A stretch of 64,000 nt of DNA from NCBI GenBank assembly GCA_030697165.1, contig JAUYQQ010000015.1, positions 186,001 through 250,000 on the forward strand, read 5' to 3'. Shown piece after piece: positions 3,253 through 48,648 of the stretch. Origin of the DNA: Acidobacteriota bacterium (GTDB taxonomy: Bacteria > Acidobacteriota > Vicinamibacteria > Vicinamibacterales > UBA2999). The position numbers and the translations under genes were made by a program. Within the stretch, counting starts at the first letter, position 1, and each line of letters opens with the position of its first letter. The notes under the pieces are model-generated. The model had not been told where the DNA came from. It did not search any database and worked only from the letters and a program-made list of their open reading frames with translations.

Positions 3253-5421
3253 TTGGCAGACGTCAACGTCGCGCGGAGGCTGCAGGTAGGGTTCGGGCTC
3301 CCAATCCTCATGTTGATCGCGCTCAGCTTCCTGGCCTACAGGAGCGTGGAAATGTCCGCCATCGGTCGTGAGTCAGTGCGGCACACTCACGACGTCATCC
3401 AGAAGCTTTCGGACCTGTTGTCGGCCACGCAAGACATCGAGGCGGGTTATCGCGGCTTCGGGCTGGTCGGCGACCCCCTGCTGCTGGGGCCGTACCAAGC
3501 CGGCCTCTTGGCCGCGCGCGAAAACCTGTCAGCGGTCACGGCGAGCACCACCGTCCACCCGGAGCAACAGGCGTCGGTCGAGGCGTTGCGAACCCTCATT
3601 GCCCAGAAAGTCCAGTTCGGCGCCGAGGTCGTGGCACTGCGCCAGAAGGCCGGCGCCGAGGCCGCGTCGGCTCATCTGGCCAGTCGCGACACCATCCGGT
3701 CGAACGAGACCATTCGCAATCTGATCCACGACATTCGGGACTTCGAACGCCGCCTCCTCGCCGACCGCCAGACCGTTACCGATCGCGATTTCACGCAGCT
3801 CACGACGCTGCTCACGCTGGGCATCGTCGCCGCGCTGCTAACCCTGGTGATCGCCGGCTGGCTGGTCGGCCGCGATACCCTGGCACGCTGGACGAGTGAA
3901 CAGGCCTTGCGGACGGCCGAGGCGCGCACGACGTTTGCGCTCAAAGCCGCCGGAGTGGGCATCTGGGACTTGAACTACACCACGGGGTCGTTGCTGTGGT
4001 CGGAGACCCTTGAGGCGCAATATGGCTTGCTGCCTGGCACGTTCGCGGGCACCTTCGAGGCGTTCATGGAGCGGGTGCATCCCGAAGATCGCGCCGACCT
4101 CGTCGGCACGGTAAATCAGGCGAGCAAGTCTGGCGCCCCGTTCACCCTGCTGTATCGAGCCATCTGGCTGGATGGCACCGTGCGCTGGCACAGCAGCGTA
4201 GGTCGCTTTGACATCGGCAAGGGCGACCCAATCCGAGCCGTCGGCATTGTGCTCGACATCACCGAACGCCGCGCGCTCGAGGTCCAGTTTCAACAGGCGC
4301 AGAAGATGGATGCGGTCGGCCAGCTGGCTGGCGGCATCGCGCACGACTTCAACAACCTGCTCACCGTCATCCTGGGCTTCAGCGAACTCGTGCTCGACGC
4401 GGGCGGGCCAGACGATCCCAACCGCCCCGACGTGCTCGAAATCCAGACGGCAGGCCGGCGCGCCCAGGGCCTGACGCGCCAGTTGCTGGCGTTCAGCCGA
4501 AAGCAAGTCATTCAACCGGCACGCCTCGACCTGAATCTCGTCGTCGGCGGCATGAGGGCCATGCTCGGACGCCTGATCAAGGGGGACGTCACCATCGTCG
4601 TCGACATCGCGCCGGGGTTGGCCTCGGTGAACGCCGACCACGGACAGGTGGAGCAGGTTCTCATGAATCTGGTCGTCAACGCCGGCGATGCCATGCCGAA
4701 GGGCGGTCGCCTGACGATCGCCACGGCCAACGTCAACCTGGACCAGCACCATTCGACTAGTCATTTTTCAGTCGTGCCGGGCCCCTATGTCTCACTGACG
4801 GTCACGGACACCGGCACGGGCATGTCGGCAGAGACGCAGTCGCGTTTGTTTGAAGCGTTCTACACGACCAAGGCCGCGGGCACCGGTACGGGACTGGGTC
4901 TGGCCACGATTCACTCCATTGTCAAGCAATGTGGTGGAAGCGTCATGGTGAAGTCGAGCGTCGGCCAGGGCACATCGGTCAGCGTGTACTTCCCGAGAAT
5001 GGAGGACGTGACTGCCGGCGCCACCGAGCCGCCGGCGCCGACTCGCCAACATTGGGGGACCGAGACGGTGCTGGTGGTCGACGACTCGAGCGGCCTGCGC
5101 GACCTGACGCGCCGACTGCTGGAGCGCCAGGGATATCGGGTGCTGGTCGCTGCCGACGCCGAGGCGGCCGTCGCCCTGTTCAGCAGCGAGAAGACGATTG
5201 ACGTGTTGCTGACCGACGTCGTCATGCCTGGCGGCAGCGGGCCGAAACTCGCGCAACAACTGACCACCTCGGCACCGGGCCTGAGGGTGATCTACATGTC
5301 AGGCTACACCGACGATGCGATCGTGCATCACGGCGTGCTGAAATCAGGCGTCGCGTTTCTGCACAAGCCGTTTACGTCAGATGCGCTCGGGCAGAAGCTC
5401 CGAGAGGCCATGAACCGCTAG
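3253..5421 (+). CDS. Hybrid sensor histidine kinase: CHASE3, PAS, kinase, receiver
   Basis: A 722-residue membrane sensor. Order: TM1 about 13-30; a CHASE3 extracytoplasmic domain about 35-180 with the typical TQDIEAGYRGF; TM2 about 186-206; a PAS fold about 225-345; HisKA with phospho-acceptor H364 in GGIAHDFNNLL; an ATPase domain with N-box LVVNAGDAMP and G-boxes near TGTGLGLA; and a C-terminal receiver domain with phospho-acceptor D655 in LLTDVVMPG. It would autophosphorylate on His and pass the phosphate to its own receiver or a downstream partner. No output domain or cognate regulator gene adjoins it. The start is TTG with no ribosome site but a TACTGT box about 10 nt upstream; an in-frame ATG at codon 20 would cut into TM1. 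Confidence 0.92.
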   Translation: MADVNVARRLQVGFGLPILMLIALSFLAYRSVEMSAIGRESVRHTHDVIQKLSDLLSATQDIEAGYRGFGLVGDPLLLGPYQAGLLAARENLSAVTASTTVHPEQQASVEALRTLIAQKVQFGAEVVALRQKAGAEAASAHLASRDTIRSNETIRNLIHDIRDFERRLLADRQTVTDRDFTQLTTLLTLGIVAALLTLVIAGWLVGRDTLARWTSEQALRTAEARTTFALKAAGVGIWDLNYTTGSLLWSETLEAQYGLLPGTFAGTFEAFMERVHPEDRADLVGTVNQASKSGAPFTLLYRAIWLDGTVRWHSSVGRFDIGKGDPIRAVGIVLDITERRALEVQFQQAQKMDAVGQLAGGIAHDFNNLLTVILGFSELVLDAGGPDDPNRPDVLEIQTAGRRAQGLTRQLLAFSRKQVIQPARLDLNLVVGGMRAMLGRLIKGDVTIVVDIAPGLASVNADHGQVEQVLMNLVVNAGDAMPKGGRLTIATANVNLDQHHSTSHFSVVPGPYVSLTVTDTGTGMSAETQSRLFEAFYTTKAAGTGTGLGLATIHSIVKQCGGSVMVKSSVGQGTSVSVYFPRMEDVTAGATEPPAPTRQHWGTETVLVVDDSSGLRDLTRRLLERQGYRVLVAADAEAAVALFSSEKTIDVLLTDVVMPGGSGPKLAQQLTTSAPGLRVIYMSGYTDDAIVHHGVLKSGVAFLHKPFTSDALGQKLREAMNR

Positions 5422-43269: not shown

Positions 43270-44694
43270 ATGAGATTCGCACCCGTGGCGCTGGCGCTGA
43301 TGGCGACGGCGGCCACGACCTACGACATCACCGCGCAGCGGCCGGAACTCGCGCCGGCCGTCAGGGCGTACATCACGACCGACGCCCCGGTCATTGTGCT
43401 GACGCACGCCCGCGTGATCGACGGCACCGGCGCGGCGCCGCGCGAGGACCAGACCGTGGTCCTTCGCGATGGCAACATCGCCGCGATGGGCGACTTCGGT
43501 CGCGTGGCGATACCTGACGGCGCGACCACCATCGACCTCACCGGTAAGAGCGTGATTCCGGGGCTGGTGATGGTGCACGAGCACCTCTACTACCCGAACG
43601 GTCCTGGCGTGTACGGCCAGTTGGGCGAGAGCTTCTCGCGGCTCTATTTGTCTGGCGGCGTGACCACCATGCGCACCGGCGGCAACGTCAACGGCTTCAT
43701 GGACCTGAACATGGCGAAGCTGATCGAGAGCGGCCAGAAGCCAGGGCCGGCCATCGACGCAACCGCGCCGTACCTGAACGGGCCCAACTCGTTTATCCAG
43801 ATGCGCACGCTCAAGGGACCGGAAGACGCGCGCCGGCAGGTCCAGTACTGGTCAGACGAGGGCGCCACGTCGCTCAAGCTCTACATGCAGATCACGCGCG
43901 GCGAGCTGGCCGCCGCGGTTAACGAGGCCCACCGCCGCGGCATCAAGGTCACCGGCCACCTGTGCTCGGTGACCTATGCCGAAGCCGCGGCACTCGGCAT
44001 CGACAACCTCGAGCACGGGTTCTTCGCGGCCACAGATTTCGTCACGGACAAGAAACCGGACACCTGCCCCGGTCAGGGCGTCGGGCAGAAGTCCATCGCT
44101 GCCCTTGATGAGAACGGCGCGCCGTTCAAGGCGCTGGTCAAGACCCTGATCGACCACAACGTCGCGGTGACCTCGACGCTGACGGTCTTCGAGACGTTTA
44201 CGCCGGGCCGGCCCAAGCCGCCCGGCCTCGAGGTGCTGACGCCGCAACTGCGCGAGCAGTTCGAACAGAACTACGCGCGCACCGCCCAGAACAGGGAATC
44301 GATCTACACGACGCTGTTTCCCAAGGGCATGGCGCTCGAACGCGCCTTCGCCAGGGCGGGCGGCCTGCTGATTGCCGGCACCGATCCCACCGGTGGCGGC
44401 GGCGTGATCCCCGGCTTTGCCAATCAGCGCCAGGTCGAGTTGTTCGTGGACGCCGGCTTCACGCCACTCGAGGCGATCTCGATCTCGACCCTGAACGGCG
44501 CACGCTACCTGGGGCGCGACGCCCGCGTGGGCAGCCTGGCAGTCGGCAAGCAGGCCGACCTCGTCGTGATTGACGGCAACCCTGCCGCAACGATCGCCGA
44601 CATCCGCAAGGTCGAGACGGTCTTCAAGCAAGGCATTGGCTACGACCCGGCGAAGCTGATCGCCTCGGTGACTGGCAAGGCGGGCCTGTGGTGA
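43270..44694 (+). CDS. Exported amidohydrolase (prolidase/imidazolonepropionase-like)
   Basis: A 474-residue amidohydrolase-superfamily protein. A weak signal peptide (FAPVALALMATAATTYDITA), then the beta-sandwich with VIVLTHARVIDGTGA, the metal motif HEH in GLVMVHEHLYY (HxH with Glu between), a metal-binding GHLCS with NLEHGFF, and GTDPTGGGG for the last Asp. The carboxylated Lys position falls in SLKLYMQITRGE. It probably hydrolyses a cyclic amide or dipeptide in the periplasm. Its stop overlaps the next gene's GTG start. Confidence 0.85.
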   Translation: MRFAPVALALMATAATTYDITAQRPELAPAVRAYITTDAPVIVLTHARVIDGTGAAPREDQTVVLRDGNIAAMGDFGRVAIPDGATTIDLTGKSVIPGLVMVHEHLYYPNGPGVYGQLGESFSRLYLSGGVTTMRTGGNVNGFMDLNMAKLIESGQKPGPAIDATAPYLNGPNSFIQMRTLKGPEDARRQVQYWSDEGATSLKLYMQITRGELAAAVNEAHRRGIKVTGHLCSVTYAEAAALGIDNLEHGFFAATDFVTDKKPDTCPGQGVGQKSIAALDENGAPFKALVKTLIDHNVAVTSTLTVFETFTPGRPKPPGLEVLTPQLREQFEQNYARTAQNRESIYTTLFPKGMALERAFARAGGLLIAGTDPTGGGGVIPGFANQRQVELFVDAGFTPLEAISISTLNGARYLGRDARVGSLAVGKQADLVVIDGNPAATIADIRKVETVFKQGIGYDPAKLIASVTGKAGLW

Positions 44695-45587
44695 GGCGGC
44701 AACCCGCCGTCTCGTCTCCCGTCATTGCCAAGGGGGTCGTTTTCCTGCGTGCGTCTCTGTCGAACTGGCGAAGTGGCGATGCCATCCGTGCGCTGCTCGA
44801 AGCCGGCGCGCGTGGCTACGACGTGGGCGATTCGTTGGACGAGACGCTCAACTTCCTGAAGAAGCCGGCGACGTGGGATCAGGACAAGACGCCAAGCGGC
44901 TTCGCCGACCAGCGCCTCGCGCGGGTGCAGTTGGCCAGCGCCCTGGCGGTCGCCGAGCGGCACGGCAAGGCCGCCAGCACCGACCTGGAAGCCGCCGCGA
45001 AGCTGCTGGTCGCCGAGCAGGCCGCCAACGGATCCTGGGAGCTCGACCAATCCCAGGGCCTCGGCTCCCCCGCGACCTACGGCACGATTCTCGCGACCTG
45101 GTCGGCGCGCACGTCGCTGATTGCGTCCGGCATGCTGCCTGACCACTTCACGATCGTCCAGGCCGACCGCTGGCTGCGGGGGATGACGGTCGAGACCGTA
45201 TTCGAAGCATCGTCCTTGCTGCTCGCGCTCGATCTCACCGGCGACGTCATGGCCGATGGCCTGCGCCGCTCGGCGCTCAGCCTCGTGCGCACCGGCCAGG
45301 CGGCGAACGGCGGCTGGGGGCCCGACGCCACCGCGCCGCCTCAGGTGTTCGACACCGCCCTGGCAGTGCTGGCCCTCAGTGCGCTCAACGTGGAGCCGCG
45401 AATCGCGCGGTCGACGTACCGGCCAGAGGAGTTGCTGGAGGCGATCGCCAAGGGCAAGGCGTTCATCGAGTCGCAACAGCAGGACGACGGCAGCTGGCCC
45501 GAGACCACCCGGCCCGCAGGCCAGATCAGCTACGCCCAGCGCATCTCAACTACCGGCTGGGCACTGCTCGCGCTGCTGGCCAAATAA
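44688..45587 (+). CDS. Squalene-cyclase-fold (prenyltransferase-repeat) protein
   Basis: A 299-residue alpha/alpha-barrel protein with QW-type repeats: QAANGSWELDQ, QAANGGWGPDA and QQDDGSWPETTRP followed by ISTTGWALLALLAK. This is the fold of terpene cyclases, but the DxDD catalytic motif of class II cyclases is not seen and the protein is about half the usual size, so a binding role is more likely than cyclisation. There is no signal peptide. The two possible GTG starts (44688, 44691) overlap the amidohydrolase stop, implying coupling. The gene ends inside the left border of a structured repeat. Confidence 0.7.
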   Translation: MVRRQPAVSSPVIAKGVVFLRASLSNWRSGDAIRALLEAGARGYDVGDSLDETLNFLKKPATWDQDKTPSGFADQRLARVQLASALAVAERHGKAASTDLEAAAKLLVAEQAANGSWELDQSQGLGSPATYGTILATWSARTSLIASGMLPDHFTIVQADRWLRGMTVETVFEASSLLLALDLTGDVMADGLRRSALSLVRTGQAANGGWGPDATAPPQVFDTALAVLALSALNVEPRIARSTYRPEELLEAIAKGKAFIESQQQDDGSWPETTRPAGQISYAQRISTTGWALLALLAK

Positions 45588-45811
45588 CACAGCCACCGAT
45601 TAGACACCGATTAATCACCGATTCTGATCAGTTAAGGACCCGCGACGCCGGGCACGCCCGGCGTCAAGCGAGGATCCAGCAACCCGAGATCGAAAGAGGA
45701 CGAACGACACAACTCTTTCGATCCTCGGGTTGCTGGATCCTCCCGCGGCCGGAGGCCGCTCGCGGGTCCGGCCGGTCGGTGTCTAATCTGTGATCAATCT
45801 GTGGCTGTGTT
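45586..45811. repeat. Cloverleaf-like extragenic repeat, 11-mer-arm family, copy C
   Basis: Outer inverted arms are three 11-mers each (left AATCGGTGNNT-type read backwards; right ATCNGTGNCT-type ending GTGGCTGTGTT). Inside: a closing stem GGACCCGCGA/TCGCGGGTCC (45636-45645 with 45760-45769), a perfect 10-bp hairpin with a 2-nt loop (45644-45665), a 29-bp stem with one bulge and a 14-nt loop (45670-45698 with 45713-45742), and a 6-bp triloop hairpin (45745-45759). The plan and loop lengths match copy A although the stem sequences differ. Confidence 0.9.
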
Positions 45812-45887
45812 CAGTCCGTGGCTCAGCGGGCGCGGATGCTGCGTTGCCGTCGAAGACGGGATAATATCTTTCGATACGGAGGCCCGA

Positions 45888-46313
45888 ATGCGACGGCTAC
45901 TTGTGCTCGCTACCTTCCTCGTGATCCCGTTAGTGACCACGGCTCGGCAAGCGGCGGCGCCGCCCGCCACCTCGTCAGCTCAACCCAAGGCCCAACGAAT
46001 GGCCGCGGACGATGTCATGACCCTCGTGGAGAAGGGACAGGTGTTTTTCCTCGATGTGCGTGAGCCGAAAGAGCTGGAGGAGTTCGGCACGTTCGAGGGT
46101 TACGTCAACATCCCGCTCGGCCAGCTCGAGAAGCGGCTCGCTGAGGTGCCCAAAGACAAGGCCATCATCACCGCTTGAAACGGCGGTGGCCGGGCGGCCC
46201 GTGCGGCCGCCTTACTCGAATCCAAGGGATACAACGTCATGGCGTTCTGCGGCCTTGGCGACTACAAGGGCAAGAAGCCGAAGGTCTTCCCGAAGGTGAA
46301 GCCAGGCGCCTAA
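45888..46313 (+). CDS. Exported rhodanese-like sulfurtransferase with in-frame TGA at the catalytic Cys position (candidate selenoprotein)
   Basis: Read through the TGA, the gene gives 141 residues: a signal peptide (LLVLATFLVIPLVTTARQA), then a single rhodanese domain with FFLDVREPKELEEFG and GYVNIPLGQLEKRL. The active-site loop reads IITA-(TGA)-NGGGRAARAAALL. Rhodaneses have CxxGxR here; the TGA (46176-46178) takes exactly the Cys position (residue 97), with G100 and R102 in place, and translation continues 44 more codons (YNVMAFCGLGDYKGKK) to TAA at 46311. Another Cys is at 121. A hairpin suitable as a bacterial SECIS element follows the TGA. Start ATG 45888 has GGAGG 6 nt upstream and an ATAATA box before that. 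The alternatives are a point mutation (pseudogene) or a sequencing error. Confidence 0.78.
46179..46213 (+). promoter_or_regulatory. Candidate bacterial SECIS hairpin
   Basis: Directly after the in-frame TGA: a lower stem GGC/GCC and an upper stem GGCCG/CGGCC (46188-46192 with 46204-46208) enclosing an 11-nt loop that starts with GG, about 17 nt from the T of TGA. Known bacterial SECIS elements are hairpins 16-37 nt after UGA with a G near the start of the loop, so size and place fit. GC-rich coding DNA folds easily, so this alone is weak. Confidence 0.45.
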
Positions 46314-46340
46314 CGTCCGGGCGCGGGTGACGCACCGTGG

Positions 46341-46649
46341 TCACGAGAAATAGACGGCCGCGACGGCGCCCGTCGTGCCCCCGATCACGTAGGCGAGCTG
46401 TTCGATACGGGTATGCGCCTGGGCGATCCCCCGCGTGATGTGCCAGCTGGTGAACGCGATGAGCACGTTCACGATGACCACGCCCGCGAAATTCCGATCG
46501 GTGACGTAACGGATCGCAAGGGCGATCAAGCCGTACTGCACGAACACAGTCGCGGCGAGCCGGATCGGCCCCTGCTCCAGGCGGCCGGCCGGAGCGGGGA
46601 CGGAGGAGACTGCCCCTTCTGTCGAAGGGCTGGTGTCGCTGGCGGACAT
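46341..46649 (-). CDS. Small membrane protein, unknown family
   Basis: A 102-residue protein with a Pro/Ser-rich cytoplasmic start and three hydrophobic segments: LAATVFVQYGLIALAIRYV, FAGVVIVNVLIAFTSWHI and AYVIGGTTGAVAAVYF. No family recognised. It starts 4 nt after the stop of the flavin-binding stress protein gene and would be co-transcribed with it. It is convergent with the rhodanese gene. Confidence 0.7.
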   Translation of the reverse strand: MSASDTSPSTEGAVSSVPAPAGRLEQGPIRLAATVFVQYGLIALAIRYVTDRNFAGVVIVNVLIAFTSWHITRGIAQAHTRIEQLAYVIGGTTGAVAAVYFS

Positions 46650-46653
46650 GACA

Positions 46654-47178
46654 CTAAGTCTCGGTGGGGCGCCGTGGCTCGGTCAGCTCGTGCATGGTTC
46701 CCAGCTCAGGCGGCGTGTTGGTGAGCCAGCCCTTGGCCAACTCGTACAGCACGAACGGCTTGGGCTTGTTCACTTCCAGAAATTCCACGGCATGAGCGGT
46801 GACGCCGATCAGGACCATTCGTGGGTCGTCCGGAGTGCCGTGACGCGAGTCGCCGTCATCACCGAACCACATTTTCCAATCTTCGGCATAGAGCTCTCGA
46901 ATCTTGGCGCGATCCCGGGAGATCACGGCAATTCCCGACACCGAGATCCACTCCATGCTGCCGTCGCGAAAGTACGCCAGGTTGACATGTGCATCGTCGT
47001 CAATCTCGCGCAACTTGTCGGCGCCCTCGGTGGTAACGAACCAGAGATCCGCACCAGCGGCACGCTTCTGGTTGGCCATGGCCCGTGAGCGCAGGTGGCC
47101 ATCTGCCCGACGCGTCGTCAGCATCGCGATCCCGATGTCATCGGCGAGTTCGTAGAAACGGTCGAGTTCGGTGGTCAT
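46654..47178 (-). CDS. Pyridoxamine-5'-phosphate-oxidase-like (general stress) flavin-binding protein
   Basis: A 174-residue split-barrel flavoprotein of the general stress protein 26 type. MTTELDRFYELADDIGIAML and TTRRADGHLRSRAM form the first strands; ADLWFVTTEGADKLREI, VNLAYF and EWISVSGIAVI follow as in FMN-binding relatives; the helix DWKMWFGDDG is characteristic. It likely binds FMN or a deazaflavin and acts in redox stress; the substrate is unknown. The ATG at 47178 is chosen for its GGAGCAG site rather than the longer frame to 47238. Confidence 0.88.
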   Translation of the reverse strand: MTTELDRFYELADDIGIAMLTTRRADGHLRSRAMANQKRAAGADLWFVTTEGADKLREIDDDAHVNLAYFRDGSMEWISVSGIAVISRDRAKIRELYAEDWKMWFGDDGDSRHGTPDDPRMVLIGVTAHAVEFLEVNKPKPFVLYELAKGWLTNTPPELGTMHELTEPRRPTET

Positions 47179-47340
47179 CACAGCTGCTCCTAGCGTCCGA
47201 AGCGGGTCTGCGCTCCCCTTTCTGGGCAGCGCAGCCACTCTCGATTGGACGCGAGGAACGAGGCTGCAAGATGCCCGCCATGCCGGGGGTGTGCTGGCTT
47301 CGGCTATTGGCTCACCCCAGGTGAGGGATGGCCGGCGACG

Positions 47341-48648
47341 CTAGTGTTTCCGCAGAGCCTTGATACCCCGCGCCACGAGCACATCGGCAACGGCATCGGG
47401 AGCAACGACGCGCTCGATCAGGGCGGTCGCCTCGGCGTGATCACCGGACGCCGTCACGATTGCCGCTGCGTGATACAGCAGCCGTGGATCACGGGTGCCG
47501 AGGCGCAGCGCTTCGTCTGAAGCTCGACGGGCTTCCGCTATTCGGCCGGCTCCGAAATACGCCCACGCCAGGGTATCGAGCGTCATCACGTCGCGCCGGG
47601 TCGCCGCCGCTTCTTCGGCCAGGGCCACCGCTTCGGGCAAGTTGCGGCCGCGCTCGGCCAGGAACCGCGCCAGGCGCTCCGGTTGGCGGGCCCCCTCGGT
47701 CCAGCCCGAACGCTCGAGTTGCTCGGCCATCGCATAGTACTGAGCCGCCGTCGCCTGGTCCCCGAGTTCAGCCGACAGGTCACCGATAATCGCGGCGGTG
47801 TCGGCGGTAGGCCCCTGCGCGAGCTGCGCCTGGAACACCAGCCGCGCGCCCTTTAAGTCACCCTCGACGATCTTGATCTTGGCGAGACCAGCGTGCGCGA
47901 GGGGGTGCTTCGGAAAGGTCGCCGCGGCGCGTTCGAATTCGCGCTTCGCGTCGCCCAGGCGACCTTTGAGCAGCCACAGCTCGCCCACCTGCGCGTAGTG
48001 CCAGGTCTGGGCCTCGCTGTCGTTCGGGGAGGTGCCGTCGGCGGCGCGCTGCATGTATTCCAGCGCGCCATCCAAGTCCCCCTGCAGTTCGAGCGCATAG
48101 GCCACGCGCGCGTAGGCCGGCGGACCGGGCTGCAACCGGCCCATGGTGTCAAAGGCCGCAAACGCCCGCGGGTAGTCGCCAAGTTCGAGATAGCCGTCAC
48201 CTTGGGCACCGTAGTTCCACGCGTCGCGGGGATCCATCGCCTGCACCTTGTTCGCCTGCGCGATTGCGGCGCCATAGCGATGCTGCGAGAGCAGCACCGC
48301 CGCCAGCATCCGCTGCCCCTCGTAGTGGTCGGGCTGCGCGGCAAGGAACGTTCGTAAGCGGGTCTCAGCTTCGTCGACCGCGCGGGCGTCGTTATTCACG
48401 CGCTGAAGCCGGAGCAGCGCGTCCGCGAGCCGAATCACCGCTGCGCCATCGTCCGGATGAGCCTGCAGCCGCGCGGTCATGGCGGAGACCGTCTCGGCCA
48501 ACTGGGCGCGCGACGTCCCGACGCTGGGCAGCGTGGCCGCCGCCACGGCGACGGGAGCGGCCGAGGTCTGACGCGCGTCACGCACCGTGGCCACCACCAC
48601 GAAGGTGATGGCCACGATGGCGGCGGAGGGAACCAGCCAGCGATTCAC
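47341..48648 (-). CDS. Membrane-anchored TPR protein
   Basis: A 435-residue protein with one N-terminal membrane anchor (WLVPSAAIVAITFVVVATV) and about eight to ten tetratricopeptide repeats facing the periplasm (for example ALLRLQRVNNDARAVDEAE, AAVLLSQHRYGAAIAQANK, DGYLELGDYPRAFAAFDTM, AGLAKIKIVEGDLKGARLVF). The repeats serve protein-protein binding. It lies 8 nt after the DUF4331 gene in the same direction and is almost certainly its partner. Together they are divergent from the ECF sigma gene. Confidence 0.88.
   Translation of the reverse strand: MNRWLVPSAAIVAITFVVVATVRDARQTSAAPVAVAAATLPSVGTSRAQLAETVSAMTARLQAHPDDGAAVIRLADALLRLQRVNNDARAVDEAETRLRTFLAAQPDHYEGQRMLAAVLLSQHRYGAAIAQANKVQAMDPRDAWNYGAQGDGYLELGDYPRAFAAFDTMGRLQPGPPAYARVAYALELQGDLDGALEYMQRAADGTSPNDSEAQTWHYAQVGELWLLKGRLGDAKREFERAAATFPKHPLAHAGLAKIKIVEGDLKGARLVFQAQLAQGPTADTAAIIGDLSAELGDQATAAQYYAMAEQLERSGWTEGARQPERLARFLAERGRNLPEAVALAEEAAATRRDVMTLDTLAWAYFGAGRIAEARRASDEALRLGTRDPRLLYHAAAIVTASGDHAEATALIERVVAPDAVADVLVARGIKALRKH

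Follow-up and report, generated by a model that had tools for sequence, protein, structure and literature searches.

A predicted selenocysteine rhodanese family in Acidobacteriota with an in-frame UGA at its catalytic codon

A small rhodanese gene in a 64,000-nucleotide stretch of an Acidobacteriota genome (hereafter the window), whose product is probably exported, contains an in-frame UGA codon that its source bacterium very probably decodes as selenocysteine (Sec), since dozens of relatives have UGA at this very catalytic position. We hold with good confidence to the explanation as a whole, namely that the gene encodes a genuine selenoprotein in which UGA is read as Sec, yielding an exported rhodanese that performs sulfur chemistry with residues U97 and C121. 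Because the stop codon conceals the active site, gene annotation that ends at this TGA would lose the catalytic half of the enzyme. That the family is conserved in Acidobacteriota suggests that common environmental bacteria carry out selenium-dependent sulfur chemistry outside their cytoplasm. Compared with a first-pass annotation of the same DNA, the analysis adds the Acidobacteriota-wide distribution of the family, a second near-invariant Cys at U+24, and the existence of Sec rhodaneses already catalogued in the accessible part of PMC13188914.

A UGA codon at a rhodanese active site

Reading through the frame at 45888-46313 requires only one non-standard step, U97 (TGA), after which 44 codons follow before TAA. 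The first-pass annotation had described just such a frame, in which TGA 46176-46178, at the catalytic residue, is the sole interruption, and its further claims of an otherwise intact active loop (U97-N-G-G-G-R102) and of rhodanese identity are borne out, the latter by a Pfam PF00581 match over residues 40-117 that reaches 47.3 bits against a cut-off of 22.2 with Cys standing for Sec. The N-terminal half of the protein contains DVRE and NIPLG motifs, and most relatives with a script-picked start have an N-terminus that looks signal-peptide-like or lipobox-like (by eye, uncounted). The features of the locus are as follows.

45888-46313, forward strand: predicted Sec rhodanese gene, product probably exported; 141 aa with UGA as Sec; stop TAA at 46311-46313
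45878-45882, forward strand: Shine-Dalgarno sequence GGAGG, 5 nt ahead of the ATG, identified by eye from the sequence
45888-45956, forward strand: probable signal peptide, residues 1-23, judged by eye
46005-46238, forward strand: rhodanese domain, residues 40-117 (Pfam PF00581)
46176-46178, forward strand: predicted Sec codon UGA (U97), at the catalytic residue of the loop; 63 distinct family rows share TGA here
46176-46193, forward strand: active-site loop U97-N-G-G-G-R102, six residues, the sulfurtransferase length; G at U+3 and R at U+5 in 63 of 63 rows
46192-46212, forward strand: putative bacterial SECIS upper stem-loop, 8 bp; apical loop CGUGC at 46200-46204, GU at 46201-46202
46248-46250, forward strand: C121, the Cys at U+24, candidate resolving cysteine from row conservation

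Neighbours identified by Pfam within the window comprise an amidohydrolase, a hopene-cyclase-like protein, a PNPOx-like protein, a TPR protein, a DUF4331 protein and a DUF5916/CBM9 protein; four of the ten neighbours scanned had no Pfam match, and none of those scanned accounts for the function of the rhodanese. Immediately upstream of the gene, an intergenic element of 226 bp (45586-45811) is bounded by 36-nt terminal inverted repeats (81%) and encloses a long palindrome. Segments of this element, chiefly its end motif, turn up elsewhere in the same genome (35 matches, its own two among them), which gives it the look of a dispersed MITE/REP-like repeat.

We then turned to the catalytic codon in relatives. 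Some rhodanese match was present in 57 of 60 genomes searched, and the strong matches among them (E <= 1.4e-24, own genome included) had TGA at the same codon in 6/6 cases, in keeping with the earlier argument that a chance nonsense mutation at this position is unlikely. A six-row profile run against 396 genomes of the phylum, with at most ten candidates scored per genome, returned 13 best-scoring places (at least 88 bits), all with TGA at this column; a scan of genome contigs contributed its best 80 of 196 loci. Codon by codon over 115 loci, with identical or near-identical rows merged (nine groups), TGA occupied the column in 63 distinct family rows and TGC or TGT (Cys) in six, counts that, like those for the hairpin below, come from related rows and are not independent. 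The in-frame UGA is thus conserved and has Cys homologues at the same column, the two kinds of homologue that the first-pass annotation had sought in an alignment. The family was delimited at 86 bits, a cut chosen post hoc once the table had been seen, and TGA was found at the catalytic column in none of the 49 rows below it. Two of these lower rows (L068 and L073) have Ser (TCC) at the catalytic position, and their genomes (G391 and G246) are without SelA over the cut-off.

Among the Sec loci of the contig scan (best 80 of 196), record titles mostly name Acidobacteria or a member group; the exceptions are two titled Verrucomicrobia (L110, L119), one titled 'bacterium CPR1' (L147) and one titled 'Acidimicrobiia' (L084), whose sequence matches a genome of the window's own genus (G004). 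Judged from these sequences, a predicted Sec rhodanese family is widespread in Acidobacteriota. Two Sec-rhodanese genes stand in tandem on one record (L087:2327-3124); the catalytic codon of each is TGA, and the first gene also terminates at an ordinary TGA stop.

Conservation extends past the UGA. All 63 Sec rows fit UxxG, with G at U+3 and Arg at U+5 in every one, and in 58/63 a single Cys occurs within 49 codons after U, exactly at U+24; the equivalent of C121 is absent from the remaining five, one of them broken by Ns. The 49 lower-scoring rhodanese rows have no Cys in the U+24 column, 23 of them being gapped there. In a single genome, one TGC/TGT to TGA change in a decaying Cys rhodanese, whether a nonsense mutation or a sequencing error, would give the same picture at the catalytic codon, but we regard this origin as very improbable: 63 distinct rows, drawn from many records, share the TGA, the Arg and Cys beyond it are conserved, and the hairpin downstream is kept beyond the needs of the protein. 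Scarcely more probable is that UGA is a true stop and that a truncated 96-residue protein is the conserved product. Some termination is expected at Sec UGA codons, and the DVRE and NIPLG motifs would be retained in such a product; against it, the 44 residues beyond UGA are conserved as protein among relatives and complete the rhodanese fold, and the six Cys-coded family rows read straight through.

Sec and Cys forms also share a genomic setting. BLAST clustering of the neighbourhoods of 59 contig loci and the window gave clusters of 45, 22 and 10 loci that correspond to the rhodanese gene itself or to mostly antisense frames over or beside it, together with an 11-locus cluster that is a divergent gene, located just upstream of the rhodanese in ten loci and far off in L133. 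Within one subclade, this gene adjoins both Sec forms (L107, L109, L116, L117, L128, L137) and Cys forms (L111, L112, L118, L139), and the same neighbour beside both supports a true Sec/Cys replacement in that subclade, as opposed to chance resemblance. In the three copies scanned (L109, L112 at 3462-4898, and L117) the divergent gene encodes a sigma-54 activator, hinting at regulated expression, and the occurrence of both variants next to one regulator gene offers natural comparisons for why selenium is kept. The divergent sigma-54-type neighbour is absent beside the window gene, and the clustering (59 loci and the window) found no neighbour common to several subclades. A midpoint-rooted tree of 111 rows, built on only 118 columns and with long branches, places Sec in two parts of 46 and 16 rows. 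Four Cys rows cluster (support 96/92) within a mixed Sec/Cys clade, beside a Sec row at 81/54, which suggests Sec-to-Cys switching in this clade; a single origin of Sec is compatible with the tree.

Selenocysteine machinery and the downstream hairpin

The first-pass annotation had noted that the window itself lacks sel genes. Outside the window, profile searches of this genome (5.39 Mb in 23 contigs, completeness 100%, contamination 1.55%) recovered selA (532.7 bits, cut-off 267.9), selB (309.3 bits, cut-off 242.25; its 666-aa frame also gives a C-terminal match of 27.4 bits) and selD (354.7 bits, with one in-frame TGA), together with a tRNA-Sec (61.9 bits, cut-off 47) that ARAGORN typed as SeC with anticodon TCA. 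The genome accordingly encodes SelA, SelB, SelD and tRNA-Sec, the set by which a bacterial selenoprotein producer is recognized. Among the findings named in advance as counting against selenocysteine were a lack of Sec machinery and homologues that never have Cys or TGA at the column, and neither was encountered. The TGA of selD (C8:380119-381045, L022) lies at the active site, CAG-U-ASK, which fits the UxxK motif given for selenophosphate synthetase in the accessible part of PMC13188914, and it provides the genome with a second, independent candidate Sec codon.

Genome-wide reassignment of UGA, for example to Trp, has a negligible probability in our estimation; we found no point in its favor. 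Among window ORFs selected by length (200 aa or more), 13 of 36 end in UGA, which suggests that it is an ordinary stop elsewhere in the genome. Among seven tRNAs typed in six loci with ARAGORN, tRNA-Trp has the anticodon CCA and the sole UCA tRNA is SeC, and relatives have Cys, not Trp, at the catalytic column.

Across the 60 genomes, selA exceeded its cut-off in 44 and selB in 43, and both were present in all six genomes with a TGA rhodanese; with selA in 44/60, six of six has a chance probability of 0.14 and is weak evidence by itself. A tRNA-Sec match of at least 59 bits, a line that we set at a gap in the score list, occurred in 41/60 genomes and in five of the six with a TGA rhodanese, while the family cut-off admits 53/60 but includes tRNA-Ser genes, one match in the window's own genome being typed as tRNA-Ser. 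The sixth TGA-rhodanese genome, G047, has SelA and SelB and no tRNA-Sec over the cut-off; its assembly is 87% complete, and the lack is perhaps due to that incompleteness. In a comparison of 49 hand-chosen genomes, with related genomes counted as independent and L119 left out, 39 of the 42 Sec-row genomes had SelA over the cut-off, versus 3 of the 7 with a Cys or Ser row (Fisher p 0.005); L094, which has both row types, was counted as Sec, and the other Cys/Ser genomes were classed by their row only. The three Sec-row genomes without SelA over the cut-off are G134, G189 and G305.

We next examined the RNA downstream of the UGA, where the first-pass annotation had proposed a SECIS hairpin with a loop starting in G. 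The preferred hairpin pairs columns 19-24 with 30-35 (numbered from the U of UGA) and lies 21 nt after UGA; in the window (46192-46212) its stem extends to 8 bp around the loop CGUGC. The earlier proposal holds in part, in the form of a family-supported hairpin with a GU loop, with the G at loop position 2 instead of at the start. The bacterial SECIS model in the accessible part of PMC13188914 calls for a loop of 3-9 nt with G in the first two positions, a stem of 4-16 bp, a distance of 16-37 nt after UGA and an MFE <= -7.5 kcal/mol, and the window hairpin falls within these limits at 8 bp, CGUGC, 21 nt and -16.1 kcal/mol. Taken alone, the window is not decisive: its fold has an MFE of -24.2 kcal/mol and a z of -1.61, with 17/200 shuffles as stable, which is not significant, and 238/1000 synonymous recodings are at least as stable. 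In the test for a stem of at least 5 bp with a GU loop, 159/20000 recodings of the window do as well.

The family carries the stronger signal. At the family site, a stem of at least 5 bp with a GU loop is present in 41 of the 62 Sec rows aligned as DNA (L142 was excluded for its Ns) and in 0/54 Cys/Ser rows; 200 rounds of synonymous recoding that kept protein and codon usage gave it in a mean of 0.87 and a maximum of 4 of the 62 rows. Any hairpin of at least 6 bp was found in 36/63 Sec rows and 9/54 Cys/Ser rows, and 35/63 Sec rows passed a strict perfect-stem bSECIS filter of our own. By this measure the downstream hairpin is maintained beyond the needs of the protein.

Covariation adds a narrower line of evidence. 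Columns 21-33 pair as CG in 43 rows, UA in 5, GU in 4 and GC in 3, and columns 24-30 as GC in 30, GU in 8, CG in 6 and UA in 1; both varying pairs lie at third codon positions, mostly of Ala codons. Over 57 distinct rows, columns 24-30 are unpaired in 12 and columns 19-35 in 36. On these rows the covariation score was 0.203 versus 0.076 shuffled and was higher than in each of the six slid controls. Cells with changes on both sides numbered 19 versus 4.2 shuffled, with the +3 slide higher at 22; this slide beats the preferred structure on three counting measures but not on the covariation score. Counts of pairs changed on both sides (402/500 shuffles as high) and of further pair types (102/500) fail to beat shuffles because the changes are confined to two pairs. 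The window's own MFE fold (7-12/31-36 plus an inner helix) gave a covariation of 0.069 versus 0.063 shuffled over 62 rows, and on this comparison we prefer the 19-24/30-35 stem. RNAalifold on 62 rows returned no consensus structure, and an Rfam scan of 44500-47500 returned nothing up to E 1. The hairpin is thus backed by the recoding control and one covariation score, not by every covariation measure.

Fold and proposed chemistry

An AlphaFold2 model built from a 47-row family alignment (window plus 46), with Cys for Sec, has a mean pLDDT of 85.6, with block means of 92-98 over residues 31-120. Its best solved match is the rhodanese domain of 3icr (Z 16.6, rmsd 1.4 over 98 residues), and the persulfide reductase 3ntd also ranks high among structure matches (Z 14.8). 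With Cys standing for Sec, the protein both exceeds the PF00581 cut-off and adopts a rhodanese fold in the model. U97 sits at the end of the strand formed by residues 92-97 and C121 in the last strand, 116-122. These two strands adjoin each other in the rhodanese fold, which makes a U97-C121 bond plausible in the modeled structure.

The active loop bears on the type of chemistry. A six-residue active loop closing on Arg or Lys characterizes the sulfurtransferase type of rhodanese, whereas the phosphatase and arsenate-reductase type has a Cx5R loop. All 63 Sec rows have the six-residue form, ending in Arg at U+5, from which periplasmic sulfane-sulfur chemistry follows as our best guess. A Cdc25/Acr2-type phosphatase or arsenate reductase would belong to the same fold superfamily, and the U-x4-R loop, six residues in 63/63 rows, makes such an activity highly improbable.

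Starting from what the sequences provide, namely the Sec machinery, the conserved UGA, the hairpin constraint, the predicted fold and the U, R and C residues, we infer the following course for Sec insertion, export, substrate and the U-C bond. SelB with Sec-tRNA(Sec) would read the in-frame UGA as Sec, guided by the GU-loop hairpin 21 nt downstream, and the product would be exported as a single-domain rhodanese with Sec replacing the catalytic Cys. The selenolate of U97 could then take a sulfane sulfur from a persulfide, polysulfide, thiosulfate or similar donor to form an Se-SH intermediate, from which C121 would displace the sulfur and leave a U97-C121 selenenylsulfide, to be re-reduced by a periplasmic thiol donor. 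Such an enzyme would rapidly reduce persulfides, or transfer sulfur, in the periplasm. On fold and loop length, which are what point to a sulfur or selenium transfer role, the protein is most likely a periplasmic selenocysteine sulfurtransferase or persulfide reductase in which C121 resolves the selenium intermediate. The Sec...Cys pair makes this a specific mechanism open to test.

Two other roles for a selenoprotein deserve weight. The near-invariant U...C pair would equally suit a selenenylsulfide redox enzyme working mainly in thiol-disulfide or peroxide chemistry instead of sulfur transfer, and the accessible part of PMC13188914 deems redox functions likely for most uncharacterised selenoproteins; the rhodanese fold with a six-residue loop closing on Arg, as in sulfane-sulfur enzymes, and the loss of the Cys in 5/63 rows count against this role, which we consider a serious possibility but clearly not the favored one. 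A periplasmic role in carrying selenium or handling selenite for the Sec pathway is less probable again, and we think it unlikely. Selenium-substituted rhodanese is a cited idea, appearing as a reference title within the accessible part of PMC5877670, but supplying cytosolic SelD from the periplasm is not straightforward, and BLAST found no neighbor common to subclades, few neighbors outside the window being annotated. A periplasmic sulfurtransferase or persulfide reductase accordingly remains our preferred assignment.

Relation to known rhodanese selenoproteins

Sec rhodaneses are a known, computationally predicted kind of protein. The accessible part of the PMC13188914 catalogue gives five forms of rhodanese selenoprotein, and rhodanese or sulfurtransferase selenoproteins are also given in the accessible parts of PMC9312934, PMC1088965, PMC2398784 and PMC5029168. 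As far as its text is accessible, PMC1794560 puts the number of selenoprotein families in Acidobacteria at three and mentions 'rhodanese' nowhere but in the title of a reference, and the word does not occur in the accessible main text of PMC12013277. Within literature that includes few subscription papers, we found no paper joining rhodanese, sulfurtransferase, selenocysteine and Acidobacteria, and none joining Solibacter usitatus and selenoprotein.

By its sequence the window protein fits the catalogued UxxG motif and not the CxU form. It resembles catalogue forms 2 and 4 (MBM9537886.1 and MCY3690685.1; PF00581, UxxG), with which it could be compared by description only; the accessible part of PMC13188914 says nothing of export, of a Cys at U+24 or of occurrence in Acidobacteriota for either form. 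Form 3, the CxU rhodanese-related (seleno)protein NF041203 (rhodanese_LYCAU), differs in that its Sec stands two residues after a retained Cys, while the motif of the window family is UxxG. The window protein scores 28.4 bits against NF041203 (cut-off 115) and is not a member, and 45 of 47 family members match it at E <= 1e-3 (best 9e-14), as expected of distant rhodaneses. A second rhodanese type with the CxU motif does occur in related genomes, at four loci (L164, L165, L166 and L168) found among five weaker TGA-bearing places examined; the best NCBIfam match of L166, a partial protein, is NF041203 at 85.9 bits, under the cut-off of 115. A further place, L169 (G007), has Cys at the site, and its TGA is the terminal stop. 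One genome, G031, carries the UxxG and CxU types as separate genes. Form 5, TsoB (NF045694), is, as far as its accessible description goes, a rhodanese/DsbD-fusion with two Sec (UxxxxU), whereas the window protein has 141 aa and one Sec; it gave no NF045694 match, and 9/47 family members match weakly.

Set against these forms, an exported Sec...Cys(+24) rhodanese family that spans Acidobacteriota, runs a periplasmic persulfide/polysulfide selenenylsulfide cycle, is distinct from every catalogued form and is likely missed by annotation, its genes appearing cut short at the catalytic codon, is a composite claim that we put forward only tentatively, as less likely than not to hold in full.

Among Cys enzymes, the single-domain thiosulfate sulfurtransferases PspE and GlpE share the small single rhodanese domain (GlpE, 1gmx, Z 14.0), and PspE is periplasmic; the window protein is not itself a PspE, scoring 28.2 against a cut-off of 102. 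Single-sequence and structure searches alike place at the top the rhodanese domains of two reductases that use Cys and are cytosolic, the CoA-disulfide and the NADH-dependent persulfide reductase (3icr, 3ntd). In those proteins the rhodanese is one domain of a long disulfide-reductase chain, whereas the window protein is a single domain.
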